From an uncultured Actinomycetes bacterium (GTDB taxonomy: Bacteria; Actinomycetota; Actinomycetes; Nanopelagicales; Nanopelagicaceae), in NCBI GenBank assembly GCA_903821145.1, contig CAIJKC010000005.1, positions 1 through 44,039 on the forward strand: DNA of 44,039 nt, written 5' to 3'. Every line of letters begins with the position of its first letter. The stretch's first letter is position 1. The notes beneath the pieces were generated by a model, which saw only the letters and a list, made by a program, of their open reading frames with translations, made no database searches and was not told the origin of the DNA. The position numbers and the translations under genes are program-made. Shown in pieces: positions 6,622 to 11,181 of this stretch.

Positions 6622-7818
6622 TTAATTTACCTTCAGTGTATGTGACATGCGGTTCTTCTTTGTTAATAGGTACTCACGGTTCTCAGGATGTACCTGAGTA
6701 CCAAGTTCGATGATGCGCACATCAATGCCAGCGGCGAGGAGGGAGTCAGATTTATCTGGATTATTTGAGAGCAAGGTGACATGTGTTATGCCGAGATTCT
6801 CAATAATTTCTACTGCATCATTCCAATCGCGTTCATCTACACCATGACCCAGCGCAAGATTGGCATCAACCGTATCCATACCCGAATCCTGGAGGGTATA
6901 TGCCGCAATCTTCTCTTTCAGTCCGATTCCGCGGCCTTCGTGATCGCGCAGATAGATGATGTATCCGCCCCCTGCTGCCTCAATTGCTGTTGTTGCTGCA
7001 GCTAATTGGTCACCACAGTCACATCGCTTGCTATTGAAGGCATCTCCAGTCAAACACTCAGAGTGCAGGCGTACTACGGCACTTGATTCTGGATTACCGA
7101 AACGAAGGATCGCATGTTCGGCACCGCCTGCTGCAACATGAATAGCGATGCTCCAGTCAGCACTAGTGCGTGGAAGCTCGGCCCACTCGTATGCAACCGG
7201 TGTGCTCGCTATATCCGGCAGACGTGTCTGTGAATATTCGATAAGTTCTTTCATCGTAAAGATCGGAATCTGATGCCTTGTGGCAAATGCCTTCAGATCT
7301 TCACCTCGAGCCATTGAACCATCGTCCATCACGATCTCGCTGATGGCGGTTGCAGGTTGTGCGCCGACTAAGTAAGCCATAACAACGCCAGCCTCAGTGT
7401 GGCCTTGTCGTGATGCAAAGAGCCCTTCATGGGCTATGAGTGGGAAGACATGGCCTGGTCGCATGAAATCAGATGACCGTGCACTGGGATTTGCCAGATG
7501 CTTCACTGTATTGGCGCGCTCTTGCGCGCTGATGCCAGTGGTATTGCCCTGTAGGACATCCACTGAAACTGTGTATGCCGTCCGCTTCTGATCTTGGTTG
7601 CGCTTGACCATCGCAGGCAGATCTAATGAGCGGGCAATGTCGTGAGTGAGGGCGACGCAGATAACACCTGATGTGTAGCGGACCATGAACCCGATCGACT
7701 CTGGCGTTGCCTTGTCGGCGAGCAGCATGAGATCGCCTTCGTTTTCACGAGATTCATCATCGGTAATGATGACGAACTTACCTTTAGCGAACTCTGCTAA
7801 TGCGCTCTCGATATTCAC
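6622..7818 (-). CDS. ribBA: Bifunctional DHBP synthase / GTP cyclohydrolase II
   Basis: A 398-residue fusion supplying both starting branches of riboflavin synthesis. Residues 1-200 are 3,4-dihydroxy-2-butanone-4-phosphate synthase, with the acidic DDESRENEGDLM metal/substrate loop and GHTEAGVVMAYL. Residues 205-398 are GTP cyclohydrolase II: the zinc site is CLTGDAFNSKRCDC and the GTP segment YLRDHEGRGIGLKEKI. Both active sites look intact. The start is GTG at 7818, overlapping the ribE stop by 4 nt (GTGA), so translation is probably coupled to ribE. Regulation is by the FMN riboswitch at the head of the operon. Confidence 0.97.
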   Translation of the reverse strand: MNIESALAEFAKGKFVIITDDESRENEGDLMLLADKATPESIGFMVRYTSGVICVALTHDIARSLDLPAMVKRNQDQKRTAYTVSVDVLQGNTTGISAQERANTVKHLANPSARSSDFMRPGHVFPLIAHEGLFASRQGHTEAGVVMAYLVGAQPATAISEIVMDDGSMARGEDLKAFATRHQIPIFTMKELIEYSQTRLPDIASTPVAYEWAELPRTSADWSIAIHVAAGGAEHAILRFGNPESSAVVRLHSECLTGDAFNSKRCDCGDQLAAATTAIEAAGGGYIIYLRDHEGRGIGLKEKIAAYTLQDSGMDTVDANLALGHGVDERDWNDAVEIIENLGITHVTLLSNNPDKSDSLLAAGIDVRIIELGTQVHPENREYLLTKKNRMSHTLKVN

Positions 7819-8417
7819 TGATCACCACGCTTCATCAAACGTTCTACATACTTTGCCAGAACATCGACTTCCACATTGACCGTGGCTCCGACGGAGAGCA
7901 GGCCCAGGGTGGTCTTGCGTAGCGTCTCTGGGATCAGCCAGACTGAAACTTCATTCTTTGCATCATCGAGCTCGCCCACAGTCAGGGATGTGCCATCAAT
8001 AGAGATCGAGCCCTGAGGTTGTAGATACTTCATGAGGTGTGATGGAAGTTCTACATCGACACGTTGCCACTTCTCCCCTGGCTCTATGCCAGAGATCGTG
8101 CCGATACCATCCACGTGACCCTGCACAATATGTCCACCAAGTCGATCAGAGACTCGAGCGGCGAGTTCAAGATTTACCTGCGACCCAACTTCTAAAGTGC
8201 TGAGAGAAGTTAATTTGAGGGTCTGGACCATGACATCAACATCGAAACTGTCGCCAGAGATTGCCGTAGCTGTCAGGCAAACACCATTCACTGCAATCGA
8301 ATCGCCGACTTTACACTCACCAAGAAGACCTGGAGCGGAGAATGTAAAGAGTGCGCTATCTCTACCTTGTTGCACGGAAAGGACTTTCCCCACTGCTTGA
8401 ATGAGTCCGGTAAACAT
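7815..8417 (-). CDS. ribE: Riboflavin synthase, alpha chain
   Basis: RibE dismutates two lumazine molecules to riboflavin and the RibH substrate. The 200-residue protein shows the family's two tandem lumazine-binding barrels: [12 protein letters not shown] at the N-terminus with SIAVNGVCLTA, and the second repeat with GHIVQGHVDGIG and SISIDGTSLTVGE. Length and both repeats are normal, so it should form the usual trimer. The ATG at 8417 overlaps the ribD stop by one base (TAATG) and its own stop overlaps ribBA by 4 nt, so translation is tightly coupled within the operon. Confidence 0.97.
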   Translation of the reverse strand: MFTGLIQAVGKVLSVQQGRDSALFTFSAPGLLGECKVGDSIAVNGVCLTATAISGDSFDVDVMVQTLKLTSLSTLEVGSQVNLELAARVSDRLGGHIVQGHVDGIGTISGIEPGEKWQRVDVELPSHLMKYLQPQGSISIDGTSLTVGELDDAKNEVSVWLIPETLRKTTLGLLSVGATVNVEVDVLAKYVERLMKRGDQ

Positions 8418-9415
8418 TATGCACCGACTTTCATGTGGGTAAAGATGTCGCTACCAATTTGCCTCGTTGCCAAGATAGTGAGATCTAATCGTTCATCGAG
8501 GGTGCTGATACCCATATCGCCAACAAAACTACGACCAGATCCAAGCAGGGTCGGTGCCTGGAATATCATGAGCTCATCGATCAGCCCAGCCTCAAGCATC
8601 GCTGTTCCTAGTTCACTTCCCGCCTCAACAAAGACTTGCTTCACGCCTTGTGCAAGAAGTTGCTCGATCAGCACATCAAAGTTATGACTTTTCACGTGGA
8701 GCAACCTGGCTCGGTCATCAAGAACCTGTGCGTCAGCTGGAATATCACGCACGCCCATCACAACGCGAAGTGGATTCATGCGATCCTCATCGTCATGAGG
8801 AATAAGTGATGGATTATCTGCAAGCACTGTTCCCGTTCCAACCAGGATGGCGTCGCTATTTCGGCGAAGTAATGAGACGAACTCACGGGAAGGCTCGCTG
8901 GTAATCCACTTGGATGTGCCATCAGATGCTGCAGTCTTTCCGTCAAGGGTGGTTGCAATCTTCCAGATGAAGAGTGGGCGCTTCTTCTCAACGACGCTGA
9001 GCCAAGCTCGATTGAAGAAACGTGAAGCGAGAGTGAGCACACCACCAACCACTTCTATTCCAGCAGTGCGAAGGCGATCAGCACCTCCTGCTGCGATGGG
9101 GTTGGGATCAGCTACCGCGTAGACGACCCGCGATATTCCGGCGTTAATAATCGCCTCAGTGCATGGACCTGTCTTGCCAGTGTGATTACATGGTTCCAAG
9201 GTGACAACGATGGTTGCACCAGCAGGTACCTTGCTCAAGGATTTAATGGCAACGACCTCAGCGTGATCACCACCTGCATGGAAGCCTTCAGCAATCAACT
9301 GGCCATCAGAATCGAGAATGACTGCGCCAACGATGGGATTGGATCCAGTACGGCCTTCACCACGCAGAGCAAGGGAGAGAGCGTGACGCATTGCATCGTC
9401 ATAGTCAGTGCTCAT
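8417..9415 (-). CDS. ribD: Bifunctional diaminohydroxyphosphoribosylaminopyrimidine deaminase / uracil reductase
   Basis: RibD carries out steps two and three of the pathway. Residues 1-145 are the zinc deaminase, with ligands in [10 protein letters not shown] and [13 protein letters not shown]. Residues 150-332 are the NADPH-dependent reductase ([42 protein letters not shown]). I chose the ATG at 9415 (332 residues) because it has a run of seven G 4 nt upstream and begins at the conserved deaminase start; the frame stays open for 23 more codons upstream without family sequence. It is the first gene of the rib operon, behind an FMN riboswitch, a terminator hairpin and a possible site-covering hairpin. 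Confidence 0.96.
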
Positions 9416-9417
9416 AT

Positions 9418-9450
9418 ATCCCCCCCGTTCAGAAAAATCCGGGGTGGGAT
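9418..9450 (-). promoter_or_regulatory. Hairpin able to cover the ribD ribosome-binding site
   Basis: On the minus strand ATCCCACCCC (9450-9441) can pair with GGGGGGGAT (9426-9418), nine base pairs with one bulged A, around a 14-nt loop. The 3' arm is the G7 ribosome-binding site just upstream of the ribD ATG. Pairing would block initiation, giving a translational control point below the terminator. Confidence 0.5.
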
Positions 9451-9489
9451 CGCCAAATATTGGGTGCGCACAGCGCACAGTCAATAGCG

Positions 9490-9511: not shown

Positions 9512-9513
9512 GA

Positions 9514-9636
9514 TAGCTCCCTCTCATCCGGACTTTAACCGTCGGTTCTGGAATCTCACCAGATCCACCGTTCGCTGGCTGCCAACGGGTCGCAGACTTT
9601 ACTGCCGGTTCGGAATTACACCGACCCCGGAAACTA
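9514..9636 (-). ncRNA. FMN riboswitch (RFN element)
   Basis: Reading the minus strand from 9636 the conserved RFN blocks appear in order: GGTGTAATTCCGAACCGGC, AGTCTGCGAC, GATCTGGTGAGATTCCAG, CCGACGGTTAAAGTCC and GGATGAGAG. The ends TAGTTTCC (9636-9629) and GGGAGCTA (9521-9514) pair as P1. This aptamer binds FMN and shuts down riboflavin synthesis genes. It sits directly upstream of ribD with a terminator immediately after it, so the operon should be off when FMN is plentiful. Confidence 0.97.
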
Positions 9637-9643
9637 CCTACTA

Positions 9644-9741: not shown

Positions 9742-10476
9742 ATGACCTACACACTCAGAGACCTCAAAGATCAAGTAATCGTCATCACCGGAGCAACTGC
9801 CGGAATGGGCGCCGCCACAGCCAAAGAGCTTGTCGAGCAGGGCGCAAAGGTTCTCCTCAACGCTCGAAGTGAAGAGCGCCTTCAGGGGATCGTTGCAGAA
9901 CTCGGTGAGGCAAATGCCGCCTATGTCGCAGGCGATTGTTCCGACCCAGAAGTTTCGCGTGCCATCGCAAAAGCTGCTATCGATAAGTTCGGAACCATCG
10001 ATGCTGTAGTTCCTAATGCTGGTATCGGTATGTATGGTTCGATTCTTGATTACAGCGATGATGAAGTTAATCGCATGATGCGCACCAACTACGAAGGAAC
10101 AGTTCACATCATCCGTGCTTGCTTACCTACGATGATTGCCAAGAAGGCAGGCGACATTGTGATCGTCTCATCTGTCGCAGGTTTCCGTGGTGGCGGAGAT
10201 GAATCTATCTACGCTGGCACAAAGCATGCACAGGTTGGCCTTGCAGGTGGACTTGATCGCGAACTTCGCGAAAAGGGTGTTCGGGTTGCACTCGTCTGCC
10301 CAGCAGGAACAGAGACAGAGTTTGCGATCGGCGCTGGTCGCACAGCAGGAACGCCAGTTCTCGCTAGCTTCCTCAGGTCTGAGGATATTGCTTTCCAGAT
10401 CACAACAATCTTGAAGCAACCTCGTTCAGTGCGCACCCATATCTGGACTCTCTGGTCAATTAACCAGCAGTCGTAA
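9742..10476 (+). CDS. Short-chain dehydrogenase/reductase (classical SDR)
   Basis: A 244-residue cytoplasmic oxidoreductase with the complete classical SDR set: cofactor loop TGATAGMG near residue 17, VPNAGIGMYG (NAG motif), catalytic Ser in VIVSSVAGF and the YAGTK active-site Tyr-Lys. NARSEE after strand 2 suggests NADP(H) preference through the Arg. Such proteins are often annotated as general stress or clavulanate-dehydrogenase-like SDRs; the substrate is not predictable. It is transcribed alone, divergent from the rib operon. A CATAAT box at 9730-9735 lies 6 nt before the ATG with no ribosome-binding site, which points to a leaderless mRNA. Confidence 0.93.
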   Translation: MTYTLRDLKDQVIVITGATAGMGAATAKELVEQGAKVLLNARSEERLQGIVAELGEANAAYVAGDCSDPEVSRAIAKAAIDKFGTIDAVVPNAGIGMYGSILDYSDDEVNRMMRTNYEGTVHIIRACLPTMIAKKAGDIVIVSSVAGFRGGGDESIYAGTKHAQVGLAGGLDRELREKGVRVALVCPAGTETEFAIGAGRTAGTPVLASFLRSEDIAFQITTILKQPRSVRTHIWTLWSINQQS

Positions 10477-10514
10477 TGTGTAAATAGCACAACCGGGGTG
10501 CGGCTTAATAAACG

Positions 10515-10587
10515 TGCCCCGGGTCGGACTCGAACCGACACTGAAAGGATTTTAAGTCCTCTACCTCTACCATTGGGTTACCAGGGC
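10515..10587 (-). tRNA. tRNA-Leu(UAA), unusual short-variable-loop form
   Basis: The minus strand folds as a cloverleaf: acceptor GCCCTGG/CCGGGGC with discriminator A73, anticodon stem GAGGA/TCCTT around CTTAAAA (anticodon UAA, reading UUA Leu), and T arm GTCGG-TTCGAGT-CCGAC. The variable region is only five nt (TCAGT), whereas leucine tRNAs normally carry a long variable arm. The D stem is ACC/GGT with an extra base, and no CCA is encoded, unlike the other three tRNAs here. UUA codons are used in this window (for example early in pmt), so a UAA tRNA is needed. The possibility of a decayed gene remains. Confidence 0.8.
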
Positions 10588-10644
10588 TCACGTTATGCAG
10601 ATGTGAAGACCCTAGGTTACACGCTCGCCCAGCTCGCTTCACCG

Positions 10645-10650
10645 TATGAT
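10645..10650 (+). promoter_or_regulatory. -10 box for a leaderless transcript
   Basis: TATGAT ends 6 nt before the ATG at 10657, and no ribosome-binding site is present. This spacing places the transcription start at the start codon. Confidence 0.6.
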
Positions 10651-10656
10651 TGCCTT

Positions 10657-11181
10657 ATGAAGAAGGCCGTAATAGCGCTCATTGCCCTACTCCTCTCTCT
10701 TTCACTTTCACCCATGGCAATTGCCGGCACTGATAAATACGAGAGTCTGCAGACCCAGGTCACCTATCAAATCTTTAAACCGAGCAACACGTTAGGCCTT
10801 AAGGCGCTGAACTTTGAAGTGAGAGCCTGTCGACTCTTTCCCAAGCGCGAGAAGGCTCTGTTAGCTGGATTCGGTGGGATGGATCATGGCATCGCCCTCG
10901 TCGAAACATCTGCTCAATACAACTGCACCGGCGTAGATAACCCACAGTCTCTCGGAACTACCAAGATCAACGGCACCACAGCGCAGGTCGGAATATATTG
11001 CGCAACCAATAACTGCAAGGCTTCCACTTTTTCCCAGCACGGCGGTGAGATCACCTTTGTCACACCTAAAAGTCAAAAACGCGCTTCAACCTATATTCGG
11101 GTTGGGACGCAAGGTGGCTTTACCTTGCAACAACTCATTACCTTCGCAAGTGGATTAAAGCCGGTTCTACCTACTGCTTAA
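10657..11181 (+). CDS. Small secreted protein of unknown function
   Basis: A 174-residue protein that I do not recognise. Residues 1-24 are a clear signal peptide (MKKAVIALIALLLSL, cleavage near AIAG). The mature part has four cysteines (in VRACRLF, YNCTG and YCATNNC), which could form two disulfides outside the cell, and is rich in Thr, Gln and Gly with alternating hydrophobic residues suggesting beta structure. I start it at 10657 rather than at the upstream in-frame codon at 10498, because the upstream part reads through the tRNA-Leu gene and the signal peptide begins exactly here. It converges with the HNH-like secreted protein with a 10-nt gap. Confidence 0.8.
   Translation: MKKAVIALIALLLSLSLSPMAIAGTDKYESLQTQVTYQIFKPSNTLGLKALNFEVRACRLFPKREKALLAGFGGMDHGIALVETSAQYNCTGVDNPQSLGTTKINGTTAQVGIYCATNNCKASTFSQHGGEITFVTPKSQKRASTYIRVGTQGGFTLQQLITFASGLKPVLPTA

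Follow-up and report, generated by a model that had tools for sequence, protein, structure and literature searches.

The window, a stretch of 44,039 nucleotides from an uncultured Actinomycetes bacterium (Nanopelagicaceae), carries a tRNA-Leu(UAA) gene on its minus strand. The Rfam family RF00005 matched the window at 10515-10587 (-) with 59 bits against a gathering score of 29, and ARAGORN called tRNA-Leu(taa) at 10514-10587 (-). With a score above the gathering threshold and a cloverleaf structure, the gene belongs to this family. Its parts, together with two other genes of the same strand, are located as follows.

10515..10587 (-): tRNA-Leu(UAA) gene, 73 nt without CCA (ARAGORN, RF00005, ARAGORN drawing)
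10581..10587 (-): acceptor stem 5' strand GCCCUGG, pairing with 10516-10522 (ARAGORN drawing, sequence reading)
10576..10578 (-): D stem 5' strand ACC (positions 10-12), then C13 A14 A15 (ARAGORN drawing; 10-25 and 11-24 covary in relatives)
10563..10565 (-): D stem 3' strand GGU (positions 23-25), G23 being associated with the short form (sequence comparison)
10552..10554 (-): anticodon UAA (ARAGORN, sequence)
10540..10544 (-): variable region UCAGU, 5 nt, whose U48 goes with A15 in the leucine identity set given in the accessible part of PMC9976931 (sequence)
10515..10515 (-): discriminator A73 (sequence)
10512..10514 (-): A73 is followed by CGU on the RNA strand (CGT in DNA), so that CCA is not encoded (sequence)
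8417-9484 (-): RibD-type gene, downstream of an FMN riboswitch
6622-7818 (-): DHBP synthase/GTP cyclohydrolase II gene, downstream of the same riboswitch

The FMN riboswitch lies at 9512-9638 (-), upstream of these minus-strand riboflavin genes, and matched RF00050 with 103.8 bits. A promoter scan limited to sigma-70-like promoters found none at 10300-10800.

In the tRNA-Leu(UAA), the acceptor stem has 7 bp and the T stem 5 bp, U8 and A9 are present, and the anticodon loop reads CUUAAAA, with a G27-U43 pair closing the anticodon stem. The D loop contains A14 A15, G18G19 and A20a. The D stem is 3 bp long (A10-U25, C11-G24, C12-G23) and leaves C13 and A22 unpaired. The standard 13-22 pair of class I is thus missing, and the D arm is irregular for class I. 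The variable region of 5 nt falls within the 4-5 nt of class I and short of the class II arm of at least 10 nt, and the anticodon UAA is one for a leucine codon, as expected of a tRNA-Leu isoacceptor. The genome's long UAG and GAG tRNAs were likewise drawn by ARAGORN with a 3-bp D stem, and C13/A22 was found in 116/116 short UUR tRNAs (117 read, L153 dropped). Across these 116 tRNAs, which were required to have A14A15 and G23 and are therefore uninformative for pair 12-23, the 10-25 pair was standard in 115 and the 11-24 pair in 116, each with four pair types. This covariation indicates that the D-stem pairing is more than chance. The folding energy of the unmodified window transcript was not unusually stable (z -1.6), a value that is not telling alone. 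These results confirm that the tRNA-Leu(UAA) gene is real. The first-pass annotation had described a tRNA-Leu(UAA) with a five-base variable region, an irregular D arm and A73, and ARAGORN, RF00005 and the sequence agree with it on every point.

The same annotation had noted that CCA is not encoded here while the other three tRNAs of the window (Gly, Gln, Arg) encode it, and this was found to be correct from the sequence. Of 39 tRNA sequences read from the window's genome (hereafter G000), a rough acceptor-end test finds an encoded CCA in 17, and the genome has a CCA-adding enzyme of the actinobacterial type (TIGR02692, 740 bits); the absence of CCA is therefore unremarkable. The CAA and GAG leucine tRNAs of G000 are also without an encoded CCA. 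Once transcribed, the window tRNA would receive its CCA from the CCA-adding enzyme.

We compared the gene with the known determinants of leucine identity. According to the accessible part of PMC9976931, the bacterial identity set consists of A73, A14, A15-U48, G18G19 and A20a, and the long arm is dispensable for leucine identity in E. coli. The window gene keeps the full set as given there. Among 161 distinct Leu tRNAs read, A73 was present in 161, A14A15 in 159, U48 in 157 and a GGYAGA D loop in 154. The LeuRS of G000 is a full-length bacterial enzyme of 820 aa, with 1h3n as its best solved match. An ordinary bacterial LeuRS would read the identity set and the elbow, with no need for the long arm, and loss of the arm may also take away a handle for SerRS. 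We infer that the window tRNA is transcribed, completed with CCA and leucylated by this ordinary LeuRS.

We compared the LeuRS gene, at L316:1480-3942 (G000 contig C49), with L319 and L320. A LeuRS of compact type (about 820-830 aa) was found in the window's family and in family f5, and a longer type in Mycolicibacterium sediminis and a Streptomyces-like genome (964 aa in L319). This length split may reflect LeuRS replacement in one lineage. The LeuRS type was also considered as a cause of the short arm and rejected: short UAA tRNAs occur with compact (G000, G001, G016) and longer (G441, G249, G258) LeuRS, and a compact LeuRS also occurs in G203, whose UAA tRNA is long.

The leucine tRNA inventory was taken from G000, a 1.34 Mb draft of 121 contigs that is 98.5% complete. 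RF00005 gave 38 matches, and ARAGORN was then run on their loci. The results showed one tRNA each for the leucine anticodons UAA (the window gene), CAA, UAG and GAG. The tRNA-Leu(CAA) (contig C34, 35202-35274) is short, with the variable region ACAGU, and the UAG (11 nt) and GAG tRNAs have long arms. Among the tRNAs read in this draft there was no tRNA-Pro, tRNA-Lys(UUU) or tRNA-Leu(CAG), which are probably assembly gaps. Because the draft is without some expected tRNAs, we took the inventory again in two contiguous genomes, G001 (a single contig from the same family, 99% complete, 38 tRNA sequences read) and M. sediminis NZ_AP022588.1 (complete genome, 46 tRNA sequences read). In each of them UAA and CAA are represented by a single tRNA apiece, and both of these are short; the GAG and UAG tRNAs are long in both genomes, and CAG is also long in M. 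sediminis. A second UAA tRNA, including the long-arm copy that the first-pass annotation had asked about, was not found among the tRNAs of G000, nor among those of G001 or M. sediminis. The window tRNA is thus probably the cell's only reader of UUA, a status that in G000 leans on the two contiguous genomes, and it may read UUG as well. The earlier argument had been that LeuRS has to accept a class I body if no other tRNA reads UUA. The gene content supports its premise, and the charging step would follow from the identity nucleotides and the enzyme.

Codon use was counted over the window, in the 34 ORFs of 150 aa or longer that a mechanical call gave there. UUA accounted for 120/1352 Leu codons and UUG for 169/1352 (UUR together 289/1352), and UUA was present in 30/34 ORFs. 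Since the identity nucleotides are kept, the LeuRS is a full-length bacterial enzyme and UUA is common in the window, we consider it very likely that the gene is a functional housekeeping tRNA-Leu in a class-I-like short-arm form, probably the only UUA reader, charged by the ordinary LeuRS.

The first-pass annotation had offered a regulatory or a misassigned tRNA as alternatives, and we found no support for either. A regulatory tRNA of the bldA kind would act as a rare-codon switch limiting translation of a few UUA-bearing genes. The window gene has the same anticodon as bldA and was found in one copy, but UUA in the window is neither rare nor confined to accessory genes, as the counts above show. 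The bldA tRNA of Streptomyces is a long UAA form, and the genomes that appear to be Streptomyces (f19/g35) likewise have the long form, so this reading is highly improbable. It is similarly improbable that a class I tRNA of another isotype had its anticodon turned to UAA and is charged with another amino acid. The class-I-like body with its 5-nt variable region would fit such an origin; against it, A73, A14A15, U48 and the GGYAGA D loop are common to the long leucine tRNAs, and in two families the acceptor and T arms of long and short UAA tRNAs are identical or almost so. An artefact or chimera of a draft in 121 contigs has a negligible chance, given that a tRNA identical to the window's is present in CAINVP010000035.1 (an uncultured actinobacterium record) and that the short form recurs in contiguous genomes. 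The preferred reading therefore remains a housekeeping leucine tRNA.

We searched for the short form with sequence patterns. A fixed-length short-arm pattern (UAA or CAA) matched 116/121 family genomes in 17/17 genera; part of this count is chance, as the pattern read backwards matched 28/121, and those family matches that were listed looked mostly tRNA-like by eye. The short UAA pattern matched 83/197 class genomes and 33/91 genera, against 1/197 for its reversed control. In a phylum sample, a pattern admitting both lengths matched 132/198 genomes, and short and long forms were both found outside the class. Reversed controls matched 2/128 for UAA and 2/128 for CAA in a class sample, and 8/198 in the phylum sample. 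The short UAA pattern used on the 197 class genomes fixes loop or D-loop letters, and so do the UAA, CAA and phylum patterns, so that genomes without a match (49/128, 83/128 and 66/198 for the last three, respectively) count as unread and not as negative. A pattern requiring a 6-nt variable region matched 0/151 order genomes and 8/296 class genomes, all 8 being 6-nt forms; it misses the window's own 5-nt gene, and its zeros are no evidence of absence. At least 80 matches to the short UAA form came from named genomes, and among the matches listed were Mycobacterium, Mycolicibacterium, Nocardia, Rhodococcus, Gordonia, Dietzia, Williamsia, Corynebacterium, Arthrobacter, Agrococcus, Blastococcus and uncultured actinobacteria. 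Judged by these pattern matches, the short form is ordinary in the phylum though not universal. The earlier note had named this as a finding that would refute its reading, and to a large extent it is what we found. The gene does depart from the textbook, but the departure is a property of a large part of the phylum and not of this organism.

Several short tRNA-Leu(UAA) copies were seen in one genome or locus (G102 contig C3, L102, G591); in G102, two of three copies fall within a stretch of 1.5 kb. An actinobacterial-type short tRNA-Leu(UAA) was also seen in L164 (JAJTWZ010000096.1, labelled a Blastocatellia MAG), which is probably a contaminating contig.

The class sample of 128 genomes served to compare the arm lengths of the two UUR isoacceptors. 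UAA was read in 79 of them, with 57 short (5-6 nt), 21 long and one of 8 nt (G180), and no genome among those read had both UAA forms. CAA was long in 22 genomes and short in 21. Five matches in which ARAGORN found no tRNA were excluded (for UAA, one of G183 and one of G003; for CAA, the second matches of G000, G028 and G067). In the 29 genomes with both isoacceptors read, 15 had UAA short and CAA long, 8 had both short (including G000), 6 had UAA long and CAA short, and none had both long. The 24 long UAA forms read have variable regions of 13-19 nt, and all 8 CUN tRNAs read have a longer arm of 11-18 nt.

The core nucleotides followed the arm. Position 23 was G in every short and C in every long tRNA of the class sample; the patterns leave this position free, and the ARAGORN exclusion test does not consider it as such. 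In the 161 distinct Leu tRNAs, drawn from pattern matches and chosen loci and thus not giving population frequencies, pair 12-23 was C-G in 116/117 short tRNAs and G-C in 36/36 long UUR and 8/8 CUN tRNAs. Position 9 was A in 108/117 short and G in 44/44 long tRNAs, and position 13 was C in 116/117 short and G in 33/36 long UUR tRNAs. Where the long form has G9, G12-C23 and mostly G13, the short form thus has C12-G23, C13 and mostly A9. L153 was the single exception among the short tRNAs, with a normal 3' half and an abnormal 5' half. In the sequences read, the arm state is a mosaic that is set separately for UAA and CAA and is coupled to the core signature. The tRNA-Leu(UAA) at L391:83-161 (G180 contig C44) has an 8-nt variable region with a short-type core and is possibly an intermediate form.

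Four families (f47, f54, f56, f85) have both UAA forms in the samples, and we compared the acceptor and T arms of their long and short tRNAs. In f56, two long and two short UAA tRNAs were identical at 32/32 positions in 4 pairs, and in f54 the one long-short pair agreed at 31/32. The pairs of f85 agreed at 24/32 and 22/32, and one pair of f47 (L392 vs L369, hand count) at 27/32. Between families, 1121 long-short pairs had a mean agreement of 0.71 and a maximum of 0.97. In two of the four families, arm and core thus seem to have changed while the backbone stayed as it was; the other two give no such indication. Identical backbones may also come from shared adaptation to one LeuRS or from gene transfer. 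In tree tests, which are weak (48-66 sites, fast search, 2000 RELL replicates vs the 10000 the program asks for), a tree with each anticodon as a clade was rejected both with the D arm (p-AU 0.015) and without it (0.013). A single short clade was not rejected with the D arm (p-AU 0.22) and was rejected without it (0.021, 48 sites).

As part of the favoured explanation, and with the same high confidence in the whole, we conclude that the UAA and CAA isoacceptors have changed between short and long forms more than once in Actinomycetota. How they did so can be stated more tentatively. At somewhat below an even chance, the UUR tRNAs would behave as a two-state switch in which each isoacceptor moves alone and repeatedly between class II (long, G9, G12-C23) and class I (5-6 nt, mostly A9, C12-G23, C13), in at least some families on an unchanged acceptor and T-arm backbone. 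Core and arm would change together, perhaps through gene conversion or a strict structural rule, and independently of the LeuRS type. A less probable but still plausible history, without repeated switching in place, is that one short tRNA-Leu lineage arose once and then displaced long forms, spreading through gene transfer and through duplication with a change between U34 and C34. The near-identity within f56 and f54 against the between-family mean speaks against this history, as does the rejection of a single short clade when the D arm is left out. Short UAA and short CAA have C12-G23, C13, mostly A9 and similar variable-region letters in common, as such a lineage would; the rejection of anticodon-wise clades, the tolerance of a single short clade with the D arm, and the long and short UAA tRNAs of f85 and f47, which have no common backbone, are also in its favour.

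We compared the window tRNA with known leucine tRNAs. It is like the bacterial class II tRNA-Leu (E. coli type) in UAA, A73, A14, A15-U48, G18G19, A20a, the 3-bp D stem and the unpaired 13 and 22. It is unlike it in having 5 nt, A9, C12-G23 and C13, where the long UAA forms have their longer arm with G9, G12-C23 and mostly G13. In the mitochondrial type, the leucine tRNAs of the compartment would all be expected to be short. The window tRNA does not belong to that type, as the CUN tRNAs keep the long arm here; it also differs in being bacterial, with well-paired stems and a conventional bacterial LeuRS. The two are alike in reading UUR without a long arm and in leucine identity via A73 and A14, through which the human mitochondrial tRNA-Leu(UUR) is recognised and charged according to the accessible part of PMC9976931.

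The short UAA and CAA tRNAs of M. sediminis were compared with the M. tuberculosis tRNA-Leu set. The accessible part of the source on that set describes some tRNAs with a long variable loop, implying others without, and does not discuss the short ones there. A short-variable-loop tRNA-Leu(TAG) in an accessory tRNA cluster is reported in the accessible part of a study of M. mucogenicum and M. neoaurum (PMC6582537). It is similar in being a mycobacterial Leu tRNA with a short variable loop, and unlike the present gene it is, as described there, an additional gene with a different anticodon that accompanies a normal long one, and not a sole housekeeping reader. We found no description of short-armed tRNA-Leu(UAA) or tRNA-Leu(CAA) in actinobacteria in full-text searches of open PMC papers. 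The short form can be read from genome sequences, and published work implies it, but no account of its spread, mosaic state or coupled core was found in that literature.

The long-arm rule for bacterial leucine tRNAs is built into methods, and in the accessible part of its description a tRNA-seq pipeline places Leu in type II, with 13-22 nt (PMC6297222). A large part of the phylum breaks this rule for one or both UUR isoacceptors. Within the tRNA set of its lineage the window gene is ordinary, and it is at the same time a true exception to the class II rule that deserves a systematic survey. Long and short tRNA-Leu occur as natural pairs in the phylum, and in some of these pairs the acceptor and T arm are the same. 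Such pairs are a ready system for testing the role of the arm for LeuRS, for SerRS rejection and on the ribosome, and for testing which nucleotides of the core have to change along with it. Short UUR leucine tRNAs may also be misnamed in automatic annotation; in L394 (G516), a short tRNA-Leu(UAA) look-alike was named tRNA-Phe(aaa) by ARAGORN.
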